This document shows, piece after piece, positions 42,918-47,745 of a DNA stretch of 64,000 nt. The stretch's first letter is position 1. Each line of letters begins with the position of its first letter. The notes below the pieces were generated by a model. The model worked only from the letters and a program-made list of their open reading frames with translations, was not told the origin of the DNA and did no database searches. The DNA lies in NCBI RefSeq assembly GCF_007993815.1, contig NZ_VJWE01000011.1, forward strand, positions 124,001 to 188,000, written 5' to 3'. The translations under genes were made by a program, and so were the position numbers. This DNA comes from Acidovorax delafieldii (lineage in GTDB: Bacteria > Pseudomonadota > Gammaproteobacteria > Burkholderiales > Burkholderiaceae_C).

Positions 42918-44267
42918 TCAAGCCATCAATGCGGCGTGGATGGACACAGCGGCGACCTTGCCGTGCTCCACCGCCTCCACCGTGAGGTCGCGGCCGCCCA
43001 CACGGCAGTCGCCACCGGCCCATACACGCGGCAGGCTGGTCTGGCCTTCGGCATCGGTGGCGATGCGCCCGCCCTCCAGTGCAATGCGGTTGCCCACGGG
43101 TTCGGCCACAAAGGTCTGGCCAATGGCCTTGAGCACCATGTCGGCGTCCAGCGTGAAGGTTTCGCCCGTTTCCACCAGCTTGCCGCCGCTCAGCGCCGTG
43201 GCGGCGAACCGCACACCCGTCACAGCACCGTTTTCGCTCAGCACCTCCTTCGGTGCCGCCCAGTGGCGGATCGTCACACCATTCGTCTGCGCCCACTGCT
43301 GCTCCACAGCGGACGCCGACATGGCCTCAGCGCCCCGGCGGTAGACGATGGTCACTTCTTCCGCGCCCAGCTTGCGCGACTGCACAGCGGCATCCACCGC
43401 CGTCATGCCGCCACCAATCACCACTACGCGGCGGCCTACAGGCAGGGCGGAGAGGTCGGTGCTCTGGCGCAGCTCGGCGATGAAGTCCACGGCATTGCGC
43501 AACCCAGTGGCCGTGGGCTCGGCCACGCCCAGTGCGTTCACACCCTGCAGGCCCAGGCCAAGGAAAACGGCGTCATACGCGCCCAGCAGACTGTCGAGCG
43601 TGATGTCACGGCCCAGTTGCTGGCCGGTGCGCACCTCGATACCGCCGATGGACAACAGCCACTCCACTTCCTTTTGCGCGAAGTTGTGCGTGGTCTTGTA
43701 GCTGGCCAGGCCATATTCGTTGAGGCCGCCGAGCTTGGGGCGCGCCTCGAACAGCACCACGTCATGCCCACGCACAGCCAGGCCATGCGCGCAGGCCAGG
43801 CCCGCCGGCCCGGCGCCCACCACGGCCACGCGCTTGCCGGTGGCGGCTGCACGCTGGAACAGCGGTGCACCGGGCTGGGCAAAGAAGGCGTCGGTGGCGT
43901 AGCGCTGCAACGAGCCGATCTCCACCGGCTTGTCCTCGTTGGTGTTGCGCACGCAGGCCTGTTCGCACAGCACCTCGGTGGGGCACACGCGGGCGCACAT
44001 GCCACCGAGCGGGTTGGCCTCCAGGATGGCGCGGGCAGCCCCCCGGTTGTTGTCCTGCGCAATGCGGTGGATGAACGACGGGATGTCGATGCCGGTGGGG
44101 CAGGCCGTGGCGCAGGGAGCGTCGTGGCAGTAATAGCAGCGCTCGGCCTCGATCAGCGCTTGCGGGCGGGTGAGCGGCGGGTGTGCGTCGCTGAAGTTCA
44201 CGGCGTAGTCGGCCAGGTTCAGGCGTGCGGCATGAATGCCGCAGGCACGGCTTGCGGGTGTGTCCAT
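42918..44267 (-). CDS. preT: NAD-dependent dihydropyrimidine dehydrogenase subunit PreT
   Basis: The 449-residue GltD-like flavoprotein is the NAD(H) module of dihydropyrimidine dehydrogenase. It has the Fer4_20 domain (CYYCHDAPCATACPTGIDIPSF; GGMCARVCPTEVLCEQACVRN), then FAD and NAD binding motifs (VAVVGAGPAGLACAHGLA near 140; VVVIGGGMTAVDAA near 275) and the terminal FAD motif VWAGGDCRVGG. The ATG at 44267 has GGAGG at 7 nt. It is the first gene of the pyrimidine cluster and is divergent from a RutR-like regulator. Confidence 0.95.
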   Translation of the reverse strand: MDTPASRACGIHAARLNLADYAVNFSDAHPPLTRPQALIEAERCYYCHDAPCATACPTGIDIPSFIHRIAQDNNRGAARAILEANPLGGMCARVCPTEVLCEQACVRNTNEDKPVEIGSLQRYATDAFFAQPGAPLFQRAAATGKRVAVVGAGPAGLACAHGLAVRGHDVVLFEARPKLGGLNEYGLASYKTTHNFAQKEVEWLLSIGGIEVRTGQQLGRDITLDSLLGAYDAVFLGLGLQGVNALGVAEPTATGLRNAVDFIAELRQSTDLSALPVGRRVVVIGGGMTAVDAAVQSRKLGAEEVTIVYRRGAEAMSASAVEQQWAQTNGVTIRHWAAPKEVLSENGAVTGVRFAATALSGGKLVETGETFTLDADMVLKAIGQTFVAEPVGNRIALEGGRIATDAEGQTSLPRVWAGGDCRVGGRDLTVEAVEHGKVAAVSIHAALMA

Positions 44268-44484
44268 CAGGTTTCCTCCGAGAGGGTCAGGGTGGGGGTC
44301 TGGGCGCCCATGGGGCGTGCAAGCGCACGCCGCGCAGCGTTGGAGCGCCAGCAAGTGGCGCCAACCAATGCGGCACCGGCGTGAATGCTGGTGCCCGCAA
44401 ACTTCGGAGGTTTCATCGTGGTCCTCGCTGTGGGGTGCAGGTGCCCGCTGCTTTGCGACGGCGGTGCCCTGCGTTGTGGGTCAA

Positions 44485-44518
44485 TTTACCAACCCGTAAA
44501 AATTTACCAATTGGTAAA
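44485..44518. promoter_or_regulatory. Double palindromic operator for the RutR-like regulator
   Basis: TTTACCAATTGGTAAA (44503-44518) is a perfect 16-bp palindrome. TTTACCAACCCGTAAA (44485-44500) is a second, imperfect copy 18 bp away centre to centre. Both resemble the RutR consensus TTGACCA-N2-TGGTCAA with T for G. They lie in the 331-bp divergent region between preT and the regulator, closer to the regulator start. On the preT strand TTGGTA and TAAATT spaced 16 bp overlap them, so repression of that promoter is plausible. The remainder of the region contains no gene. Confidence 0.7.
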
Positions 44519-44598
44519 ATCCCTACAGCAAACCGCGTGCCAGCCTCCAGCCAGCCAATTGCCAGTTTTCAGGCCCCGGCTTGTTCCACAATGGTGCA

Positions 44599-45303
44599 AT
44601 GACTGCAGCCCGCCCGTCCATTGCCCCCCCGCCCCCGCGTCCCCGCAAGGCGGCCCTCCCGCCTCACAACGAGTCCGCCCCCCGCGCCCCCACGGCCTCG
44701 CGGCTGCTCAAGGAGCAGGGCATCCTTACCGAGGCCGAGAATCAGTTTGCGCAATTCGGCTTTGAGGGCGCATCGCTGGAGAGCATTGCCGCCGCCATCG
44801 GCATCAGCCGCCACAACCTGCTGTATTACTTCCCGAGCAAGGAAGCGCTGTACCAGCGGGTGCTGGACGATGTGCTCACCCAGTGGCTGGCGGGCATGGA
44901 AGACCTGTCGCACAGCGATGACCCCCAGCAGGCGCTTCGGCGCTACATCCGCGCCAAGCTGCACTATTCGCGCACCCGCCCCCAGGGCGCTAAGGTGTTC
45001 ACCAAAGAGGTGATTGCAGGTGCACCACGGTATGGCACGGCCATCACCGAACGCGTGGCGCCGCTGCTCAAGACCGAGGTGCGCACCTTCGAGCGCTGGG
45101 CGCGCGAGGGCCGCATTGCCAAGGTCAACTTCACGCACCTGATGTTCATCATCTGGTCGGTCACCCAGGCGTATGCGGAGCAGGAAGCCCAGTTCGCCCT
45201 GCTGCTGGGCAAGCCCTCCCTGACCGAGCGCGACTACGAAAAGGCCGAGGAACTGATCGTGCGCATGGTGCTGAGCGCGCTGGCGCCCGATGCGGTGGTC
45301 TAA
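44599..45303 (+). CDS. RutR-like TetR-family regulator of pyrimidine catabolism
   Basis: The 234-residue TetR-type repressor has its DNA-binding helix-turn-helix in FEGASLESIAAAIGISRHNLLYYFPSKEALYQ near residues 52-85, very close in type to RutR (LLYYFPSKEALY). The C-terminal ligand domain (TKEVIAGAPRYG, MFIIWSVTQAYAEQEAQ) matches the YcdC/RutR family, which senses uracil or thymine. A Pro-rich N-terminal extension of about 30 residues precedes the domain. The ATG at 44599 is used; the longer frame starts at TTG. It is divergent from preT with paired palindromes between them. Confidence 0.88.
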   Translation: MTAARPSIAPPPPRPRKAALPPHNESAPRAPTASRLLKEQGILTEAENQFAQFGFEGASLESIAAAIGISRHNLLYYFPSKEALYQRVLDDVLTQWLAGMEDLSHSDDPQQALRRYIRAKLHYSRTRPQGAKVFTKEVIAGAPRYGTAITERVAPLLKTEVRTFERWAREGRIAKVNFTHLMFIIWSVTQAYAEQEAQFALLLGKPSLTERDYEKAEELIVRMVLSALAPDAVV

Positions 45304-45392: not shown

Positions 45393-46757
45393 TCAAGCAC
45401 CCAATGTTTTCAGCCGCCGGTACAGCGATCGCTCGCTGATGCCCAGCCGCCGCGCCAGGGCTGAACGGCTGCCCTGGTGGGCAGCCACGGCCCGGCGCAG
45501 GGCCTCGTCGTCGGGCAAGGGGCGGCGTGATAGCCCCGCTAACGCAACCGATACAGGCAGCACCCCTGCGCCCTGAGCCACCGCACCCGCGAGCGGGGGC
45601 AGACCACAGGCAAGCGCTTGCTGCACATGCTCCGCGCCGATGCTGTCGCCATCGCACAGCAAGGCGGTGCGCTCCAGCAGGTTGCGCAGTTCCCGCACAT
45701 TGCCGTGGTAGGGCTGCGCCTCCAGCAAGGCCAGCGCAGCGCCAGACAACTGCAGCGCACGGGGCTGGGGCGCCACGCGTTCCAGCAGCGCGCGTGCCAG
45801 CAAAGCGGTGTCCCCCTGGCGTTCGCGCAGCGGTGGCAGGTGGATGGGGAAGGTGCTCAGGCGGTAATACAGGTCTTCGCGAAAGTGCCCTGCGGCCACC
45901 ATGTGCTGCAGGTTGCGGTGCGTGGCAGACACCACGCGCAGGTCGGCATGCCTCAGCTCGGTGCTGCCCACGCGGCGGTAGGTGCCGGTCTCCAGCAGGC
46001 GCAGCAGCTTGACCTGCAGCGGCAGGGGAATGTCGCCCACTTCGTCCAGAAACAGCGTGCCACCGTTTGCCGCCTCTACCAGCCCCGGCCGGGCCTGGGC
46101 CGCGCCGGTGAACGCCCCTTTCTCATGCCCGAACAGCTCGGACTCAAACAGCGCCTCGGGCAGGCTGGAGCAGTCCACGGGTACCAGCGCACGCCGCGCG
46201 CGCAGGCTGCCCTGGTGCACGGCATGGGCCACCAGCTCCTTGCCCGTGCCCGACTCGCCCAGCAGCAACACCGCAGCCCGCGAGGGTGCCACCCGCGCCA
46301 CCAGCCCCAGCATCTTCTGGAACGCGGGCGACCGCCCGATGAGCCCCTGCGCGGACGGCACCGGCTGCGCCGCCACCGGCAAAGGCACCATCTTTTCGAC
46401 AAAGAACCCCATGGTGCCGTCCGCCCCCGCCACGGGCGCCAGCTCGATCTGCACATATTCCTCACCCTGGGCCGTGTGGTGCACATGCAGCACCCGTTCG
46501 CATTGCCCCGAGGCGCGCGCCTGCGCCAGCGGACAGGACTCGCCCGCCTGGTCACAGGGCACGCTGGCGTGGTGGGACACAGCGTGGCAGGTGCGCCCCA
46601 CCACGCTGCCCCCCGCGCCGCCAGCCGTACCGAACAGGCGGCGATAGGCGCCATTGGCCGCCAGGATGCGATAGCGGTCGTCCACCAGGATGTGCGGATC
46701 TGGCAGGCCTTCCAGAAAGGACACCAGTTCTGCGGGTGGTGCGGGGAGGTGGGGCAT
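45393..46757 (-). CDS. Sigma-54-dependent activator with PAS sensor (NtrC family)
   Basis: The 454-residue regulator has a PAS domain (residues about 10-115) containing a Cys/His-rich motif [20 protein letters not shown] that may bind a metal or sense redox state. The AAA+ domain follows, with Walker A GESGTGKE, the sigma-54 contact loop GAFTGA, Walker [12 protein letters not shown] and [16 protein letters not shown] Fis-type helix-turn-helix ends it ([21 protein letters not shown]). The ATG at 46757 is 8 nt after GAAGG; an ATG 18 bp earlier is possible. It is divergent from an orphan Rieske gene that has a sigma-54 promoter, its most likely target. Confidence 0.9.
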
Positions 46758-46844
46758 GGAAAAACCTTCGTACATGCAAGGGCCCTGACGGTGCACCGGT
46801 TTCGGCAGCGGGCCTTTGATCTATGCCATGCGGACTGCAATGGA

Positions 46845-46920
46845 TGGCAGTTGGCAGCCGGCTTGGCAGACAGGGTGGCAGTGAATCCGGCCGCTGCCGG
46901 GCCTGCGGCGCACCTGCCAA
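46845..46920. promoter_or_regulatory. Candidate enhancer with TGGCAG repeats for the sigma-54 activator
   Basis: TGGCAG occurs four times (46845-46850, 46852-46857, 46864-46869, 46876-46881), and the inverted form CTGCCAA at 46914-46920 pairs with TTGGCAG. They lie 80-155 bp upstream of the -24/-12 promoter, the usual distance for a bound sigma-54 activator. The assignment is inference from position and repetition. The whole 46758-47118 interval has no gene. Confidence 0.5.
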
Positions 46921-47000
46921 CCCGACATCGCGCGCGCAATCCATTGAATTCACGGGCTTTTCATGCAGCACGCGCCATGGCACGCAGGTCTTGCGGGCGA

Positions 47001-47015
47001 TGGCACGCGGTTTGC
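47001..47015 (+). promoter_or_regulatory. Sigma-54 (-24/-12) promoter of the Rieske gene
   Basis: TGGCACGCGGTTTGC matches TGGCACG-N4-TTGC exactly, with GG and GC separated by the required 10 bp. Transcription should start near 47027, giving a 92-nt leader before the Rieske ATG at 47119. Confidence 0.8.
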
Positions 47016-47118
47016 GGTAAGCCATAGCCGTCCGCAGCGATGCGGGCGGTGGCTGTCACCCCGGCGAGAACCTTTTCTGTACCACAGCCCGTCCCGTCCT
47101 CCTTCTCAGAAAGCCCCC

Positions 47119-47745
47119 ATGGCCCTCCACCCCGCTACAACGAATGGCTCCCTTCCAGGCACAGAGGGCGATCCCGCTGCAGAGCGTCGGCAGCTGGTGC
47201 TGCTGACGGCGGCCACAGGCTGCGTGGCGGCGGCAGGGGTCGCCGTGCCCCTGGTGTCCAGCCTGGCCCCCAGCGAGCGCGCGCGGGCCATGGGCGCCGG
47301 TGTCGAGGTGGACATCAGCGACCTGCCGCCCGGCGGCGTAAAGACGGTGGAATGGCGCGGCAAGCCCGTGTGGATCATGCGGCGTACGCCCGAGATGCTG
47401 GCCGCCCTGCCCCAGCAAGACGCCGCGCTGGCCGACCCGGCCTCGCGCAAGGACCAGCAACCCGAGTACGCCCGCAACCCGCAACGCTCCATCCGCCCGG
47501 AGGTGTTTGTCACCGTGGGCATATGCACCCACCTTGGCTGCTCCCCCACCGCCGTGCCCGCAGGCACCACCAACCCCAGCGTGGGCGACCAGTGGCAGGG
47601 CGGCTTCTTTTGTCCATGCCACGGCTCCACCTTCGACCTGGCGGGCCGCGTCTTCAAGAACAAGCCCGCGCCCACCAACCTGGAGGTACCGCCGCACCGC
47701 TACGTGTCCGACACCCGGCTGCTCATCGGGGACGACGCTGCCTGA
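47119..47745 (+). CDS. Orphan Rieske iron-sulfur protein (ubiquinol-cytochrome c reductase type)
   Basis: The 208-residue protein has a twin-arginine membrane anchor (AERRQLVLLTAATGCVAAAGVAVPLV), the hinge (SERARAMGAGVEVDISDLPPGG) and the Rieske domain. The 2Fe-2S ligands are Cys136/His138 (CTHLGC) and Cys165/His168 (CPCHGS), with Cys141 and Cys167 as the disulfide pair. It is like PetA in every feature, but no cytochrome b or c1 gene is near: LysR follows on the opposite strand. It is probably a second copy that exchanges into the bc1 complex or another quinol enzyme under a special condition, controlled by the divergent sigma-54 activator. Confidence 0.9.
   Translation: MALHPATTNGSLPGTEGDPAAERRQLVLLTAATGCVAAAGVAVPLVSSLAPSERARAMGAGVEVDISDLPPGGVKTVEWRGKPVWIMRRTPEMLAALPQQDAALADPASRKDQQPEYARNPQRSIRPEVFVTVGICTHLGCSPTAVPAGTTNPSVGDQWQGGFFCPCHGSTFDLAGRVFKNKPAPTNLEVPPHRYVSDTRLLIGDDAA

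Follow-up and report, generated by a model that had tools for sequence, protein, structure and literature searches.

A conserved divergent pair of a probable FisR-type sigma-54 activator and an orphan Rieske gene in Acidovorax delafieldii, a possible switch for a substitute bc1 subunit

FisR of Cupriavidus pinatubonensis JMP134 is a sigma-54 activator of sulfide-oxidising genes, as Li and colleagues reportedly showed in 2017. The available text of PMC12170894 describes FisR together with sigma-54 as activating the sulfide-oxidising genes of C. pinatubonensis, and states that its cysteines form tetrasulfide or polysulfide bridges. In A. baumannii, according to the accessible part of PMC7315123, sulfide induces cydAB, and both FisR and the ArsR-type BigR are used; this FisR answers sulfide without having the Cupriavidus cysteines, so that the cysteine triad is not required in every FisR. 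In the available portion of PMC10164946 we did not find a sigma-54 regulator of cydA2B2 in CO-tolerant Cupriavidus necator. A known bacterial response to respiratory poisons, H2S among them, is to switch oxidases, from which the exchange of a Rieske subunit would differ. Such an exchange has a precedent in Rubrivivax gelatinosus, in which the orphan Rieske protein can replace the copy of the operon (Ouchane et al. 2005, as related in the accessible parts of PMC6256036 and PMC4013037).

We analysed a stretch of 64,000 nucleotides of the A. delafieldii genome, spanning G000:C1:124001-188000 and here called the window, in which a sigma-54 activator gene and a Rieske gene face away from each other. 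The module comprises the following features:

45393-46757, minus strand: gene of the FisR-type sigma-54 activator, 454 aa (Pfam PAS_4, Sigma54_activat, AAA_lid_14, HTH_8)
45408-45506, minus strand: HTH_8, Fis-type DNA-binding domain, residues 418-450 (domain search)
46101-46118, minus strand: GAFTGA loop, residues 214-219 (sequence)
46533-46589, minus strand: Cys triad of the PAS domain, C57/C68/C75, C-x10-C-x6-C (aligned sequences)
46845, 46852, 46864 and 46876 (46845-46881), plus strand: four TGGCAG half-sites, predicted activator-binding UAS
46914-46919, plus strand: inverted half-site CTGCCA (sequence)
47001-47015, plus strand: -24/-12 sigma-54 promoter TGGCACG-CGGT-TTGC (motif match)
47027, plus strand: predicted transcription start, about 12 nt past the -12 element (from spacing)
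47119-47745, plus strand: petA2, orphan bc1-type Rieske iron-sulfur subunit, 208 aa, with twin-Arg N-terminus, CTHLGC and CPCHGS

The original prediction had described a PAS-AAA+ activator divergent from a Rieske gene that lacks bc1 partners. We found the activator's complete domain set and its intact GAFTGA loop, which in this activator family is the sigma-54 contact, and corrected the start of the reading frame from 46758 to 46757; the open reading frames flanking the Rieske gene hold no cytochrome b or c1 gene. The claimed promoter has the spacing TGGCAC-N5-TTGC and is conserved across loci, and all four predicted repeats as well as the inverted half-site were located within 46845-46919. 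The module lies between a RutR-like TetR gene and, at its other end, LysR and argC-like genes, the last name being given from sequence only.

We propose, with about even confidence, a joint reading in which this module is a FisR-type switch that takes sulfane sulfur as its signal and supplies a substitute Rieske subunit to bc1. Sulfane sulfur, i.e. persulfide or polysulfide from H2S, would modify C57/C68/C75, and the modified triad would free the AAA+ motor from the hold of the PAS domain. The activator would bind the TGGCAG half-sites and, as we infer from the architecture, its ring and RpoN polymerase would open the promoter, rpoN being present in one copy in the genome. PetA2 would be made and exported, and most likely it would replace or supplement PetA1 in the bc1 complex, whose genes lie elsewhere; quinol oxidation could thereby be kept running when sulfide or persulfide damages the normal chain.

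The activator combines a PAS sensor, an AAA+ domain with GAFTGA and a Fis-type HTH with three cysteines at spacings of 11 and 7, as expected of a FisR-type protein; it has no adjacent pdo-sqr operon, its target being petA2, which is a matter of context and not a property of the protein. Searched against 72,556 plasmid and chromid records, it gave three matches at E<=1e-80, the best of which is an activator of Cupriavidus metallidurans CH34 (identical in 52% of 444 aligned columns, which include the PAS domain). In CH34 the activator gene and an MBL-fold gene point away from each other, and an SQR-like flavoprotein gene comes next after the latter, an arrangement as in FisR; a TauE exporter gene flanks the activator gene on its other side. 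With 389.9 bits the MBL-fold protein matches, over its length, the dioxygenase part of the Blh sulfur transferase/dioxygenase model (NF040641, the cut-off for the two-part protein being 625), and the flavoprotein reaches 182 bits with NF049943, below the cut-off of 525. The PAS cysteines C53, C64 and C71 of the CH34 activator, which we take to be the published FisR cysteine numbers, show the same spacing as C57/C68/C75, and the CH34 intergenic region contains the same UAS half-sites (CTGCCAAGTTGGCAG) and TGGCAC-N5-TTG. The three cysteines of the window protein are invariant together with H62, H91 and H93 in 42/42 aligned sequences (7/7 in a smaller alignment). An AlphaFold model of the PAS domain (pLDDT 85.9) gave no ligand hint among the 50 matches listed for the fold, all being PAS/LOV-type proteins, and no solved sequence matched the activator PAS profile at 0.001. 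The predicted redox or metal signal can be narrowed, because of family, cysteine spacing, UAS and neighbours, to that of a FisR-type sensor, suggesting that the activator probably responds to sulfane sulfur.

The neighbours of related activators bear on the signal, for which a different candidate has to be weighed: the same switch and the same exchange might answer low oxygen, nitric oxide, cyanide or another oxidase inhibitor, the Cys/His-rich PAS domain reading the stress as a metal or redox centre. We consider this unlikely, while noting that it fits several observations. We compared 92 activator loci, 80 of which were those whose PAS domain most resembled that of the window among at least 574, so that the sample favours close relatives. 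On the divergent side, bd oxidase genes (cydAB/cioA) occur at 34 loci, petA2 at 44 and both at 11, and genes of a truncated globin (PF01152) and CcoG (TIGR02745) recur at activator loci; the commonest neighbours are respiratory, and the three invariant histidines accompany the three cysteines as they would in a metal site. Against another signal speak the divergent SQR/FCSD-like, PDO or TauE genes that recur at 21/92 loci (five with TauE alone), the best plasmid or chromid match, which faces pdo-like and sqr-like genes, and the cysteine spacing, which is that of FisR. A strict sulfur gene is absent from the divergent side at 71/92 loci, the SQR-like matches at activator loci score below the curated cut-off, and the sulfur-linked loci become 54/92 if an ETHE1-like MBL-fold protein is counted. 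The solved relatives of this protein (L060:2813-3469) include mitochondrial ETHE1 and others that we take to be persulfide dioxygenases; its metal motif looks incomplete, and it may represent a persulfide dioxygenase that is degenerate or altered. Taken together, relatives of the activator stand opposite genes of bd oxidase, SQR-like proteins, dioxygenase-like proteins or PetA2, which come in varying order. A second activator paralogue in one genome (L047; G023:C1:117000-130000) faces genes of bd oxidase subunit I, CydB, an SQR/FCSD-like flavoprotein, an MBL-fold protein and a truncated globin, a putative large sulfide-respiration cluster.

The A. delafieldii genome has no cydA, as judged by a search in which control genomes gave matches, and no match to three SQR-like queries, a search run without a positive control; both findings would also suit another signal. 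The sulfur link within this genome hence rests on the activator family and on a UAS-less cluster of PDO and ArsR genes. This cluster (L143; G000:C2, about 289.6-293.5 kb) encodes a PDO-like protein with 66% identity to its CH34 counterpart, a rhodanese, a Sulf_transp (YedE-like) protein and, divergently, a BigR-like ArsR protein. The closest solved relatives of the latter are 3pqj (biofilm growth-associated repressor), 13ct/6o8l and others, the named ArsR entries presumably being BigR and SqrR. We rejected FisR-type control of the PDO-like cluster, as its 3,849 bases hold no TGGCAYN5TTG, the gap before the gene contains no half-site and the ArsR gene is divergent. The cluster apparently represents a second sulfane-sulfur response and, since it has neither UAS nor -24/-12 element before the PDO-like gene, the ArsR protein seems to govern persulfide removal here, whereas the FisR-type activator seems dedicated to petA2. 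A further-reaching form of the sulfane-sulfur reading, which we put forward tentatively, is that a persulfide-sensing activator remodels complex III: sulfide or persulfide stress would trigger a dedicated Rieske swap and, in genomes without bd oxidase, the present one included, the swap would stand in for the usual bd oxidase bypass, making bd oxidase and PetA2 interchangeable outputs of one switch.

PetA2 scores 212.5 bits with TIGR01416, the curated cut-off being 97.4, carries both cluster motifs and an N-terminal anchor, and aligns over its length with bc1 Rieske chains. The longest open reading frame would begin at 46963; we discarded this start since relatives align from the ATG at 47119 and the promoter falls inside the long form. 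A full petABC elsewhere in the genome, as the original prediction implied, does exist: petA1 and the genes of cytochrome b and cytochrome c1 lie contiguously (G000:C1, ~94.6-97.4 kb), about 74 kb from petA2 on the same contig. PetA1 and PetA2 share 62% identity, have KR and RR, respectively, at the N-terminus, and fall into groups separated by seven diagnostic residue positions, among which we found none that would explain sulfur tolerance. As PetA2 has kept both cluster motifs and the anchor, exchange with PetA1 would be the simplest outcome. We think it quite improbable that PetA2 is made under sigma-54 control yet works outside bc1, be it as a Rieske protein for a different partner or by taking up electrons or sulfur as a sink. 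Such a role would agree with the 11 loci at which petA2 shares a side with genes of bd oxidase, an enzyme that bypasses bc1 (gene order cydAB-petA2-ybgE at nine loci, petA2 after bd oxidase genes without ybgE at two more); the score far above the bc1 Rieske cut-off, the retained motifs and anchor and the alignment with bc1 Rieske chains argue against it, as does the orphan Rieske of Rubrivivax, which works in bc1 (Ouchane 2005, cited in the accessible parts of PMC6256036 and PMC4013037).

The strict -24/-12 motif occurs twice in the 64-kb window, 0.54 being expected and 10/100 shuffles reaching two, so that the promoter match is by itself only suggestive. The UAS is more distinctive: TGGCAG-N6-TGGCAG is found twice in the window, both times upstream of petA2, against 0.05 expected. 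Genome-wide, in a search for this direct form and not for palindromic forms, it occurs at 12 places, two of which are the overlapping pair at petA2, and among the 3-kb stretches around the matches petA2 alone has two adjacent UAS matches with a same-strand -24/-12 element close downstream. One further candidate target (L135) was rejected, its -24/-12 element lying about 190 bases off on the opposite strand and both elements lying inside a 658-codon open frame. At 46978-46994 on the plus strand, 23 bases upstream of the real promoter, there is a near-copy of the petA2 promoter, TGGCACGCAGGTCTTGC, whose spacing is two bases too long and which resembles a partial tandem duplication. The second exact promoter match in the window, TGGCACGCGGTTTGC (44528-44542, minus strand), is a 15-mer identical to the petA2 promoter and lies upstream of a preT-like gene (42918-44354, minus strand; Fer4_20 dihydropyrimidine dehydrogenase domain). 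It adjoins the palindrome TTTACCAATTGGTAAA (44503-44518), presumably RutR-like, and a RutR-like TetR gene (44581-45303) is divergent; TGGCACGCGGTTTGC may serve pyrimidine catabolism as a sigma-54 promoter.

Across the 92 loci, own locus included, TGGCAYN5TTG is present within 300 bases upstream of the activator gene in 73 and absent from the 300 bases searched in 19, compared to a mean of 0.49 and a maximum of 2 in 100 rounds of shuffling in two-base blocks. Half-sites number 228 against 21 expected, and the palindrome CTGYCAN4TGGCAG is found at 28/92 loci against 0 in shuffles. Where petA2 is the first divergent gene, the promoter motif lies between both genes in 27/29 loci. Outside the Acidovorax group the -12 element of the sequences examined is mostly TTGA, TTGG or TTGT and not TTGC, so that the exact TTGC consensus is largely peculiar to that group.

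The predicted conservation of the activator-petA2 pair was borne out in the genus as well as in the wider family. A second bc1 Rieske gene is present in 9/36 genus genomes, all nine having a divergent activator, and the activator occurs in 1/27 other genomes of the genus (G029), where it faces cydAB (Fisher p 1e-7, not corrected for kinship; three genomes in which no Rieske was found, G012, G019 and G026, are counted among the 27). One genome (G035) was not counted as having a second Rieske: its sole bc1 Rieske match (G035:C12:271807-272374) consists of two pieces that overlap, contains a TGA within, and is thus broken or misassembled. In the wider family the PAS model matched 82/397 genomes from 43/126 genera. 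A second Rieske was found in 25/45 activator-positive and 5/35 activator-negative genomes (p 1.7e-4, relatedness ignored), the positives being what remained of 80 outside the genus once the 25 genomes whose best E exceeded 1e-45 and 10 with stronger matches had been set aside, and the negatives comprising 16 shown to have no PAS match and 19 merely absent from the positive list. In 23/25 cases the second Rieske gene lies on the contig of the activator within about 11 kb, in G104 and G282 on another contig.

A Rieske tree places 43 linked PetA2 on one side of a branch (SH-aLRT 96-99) and 50 PetA1 on the other. This is a quick, midpoint-rooted tree of matches with at least 140 residues, 103 rows being collapsed to 94, and two of the 44 petA2 loci (L053 and L097) are missing from it; the PetA1/PetA2 labels follow whichever BLAST score was higher and are in part circular, which does not apply to adjacency to the activator. 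One Azoarcus protein (L100), labelled PetA2 and encoded on the other side of its activator, falls beside PetA1 on a long branch. On the activator tree (89/92 loci) the presence of petA2 beside the activator changes 23 times, 30 changes being expected with shuffled labels, and 11 of the 23 gains or losses are forced by well-supported branches. These many changes, set against the single PetA2 branch, suggest that the Rieske lineage looks old while its membership of the regulon comes and goes. That petA2 is a redundant extra copy behind an incidental promoter match is scarcely credible: the strict motif is not rare by itself, but the conservation of the motif, the UAS and the divergent arrangement in different genera greatly exceeds what shuffled controls give, and one well-supported branch separates linked PetA2 from PetA1.

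If the sulfane-sulfur switch operates as proposed, the second, orphan Rieske gene, a curiosity known for a long time, would gain a concrete regulator, a signal that can be tested and a likely purpose, and the FisR regulon would reach beyond sulfide oxidation into the make-up of the respiratory chain. The conserved pairing suggests that the cell may alter one part of a respiratory complex under sulfur stress. In the open-licence literature we found no FisR-Rieske or sigma-54-Rieske-bc1 link by title and abstract, and among the titles and beginnings of abstracts of the top matches listed none describes a Rieske gene as controlled by sulfide or RpoN.

The closest described regulator is FisR of C. 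pinatubonensis JMP134, which according to the accessible parts of PMC7315123, PMC12170894 and PMC11211675 has the PAS-AAA+-Fis architecture seen here; likeness in cysteine spacing, half-sites and divergent promoter is drawn via the CH34 relative and not from the JMP134 protein itself. The target of JMP134 FisR is pdo-sqr, whereas the activator described here faces a Rieske gene, and the PDO-like gene of A. delafieldii adjoins a BigR-like ArsR gene instead. The A. baumannii sulfide response resembles the present genome in having FisR and an ArsR-type sensor together; it differs in that its FisR is devoid of the Cupriavidus cysteines and that the word Rieske does not occur in the available text of PMC7315123. 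Among Rieske systems, R. gelatinosus petA1/petA2 likewise comprises one petABC Rieske and one orphan bc1-type Rieske, the accessible parts of PMC6256036 and PMC4013037 mentioning no sigma-54 regulator. Mesorhizobium loti has a second, differently regulated Rieske gene as well, according to the title of PMC6256036, the main text of which names neither NifA nor RpoN. FisR-type activators are thus known and exchangeable Rieske proteins are known, their conserved union being what we did not find in the open-licence literature. The new element is the regulator together with its likely signal, and not the exchangeability of the Rieske subunit, which was already reported in Rubrivivax.
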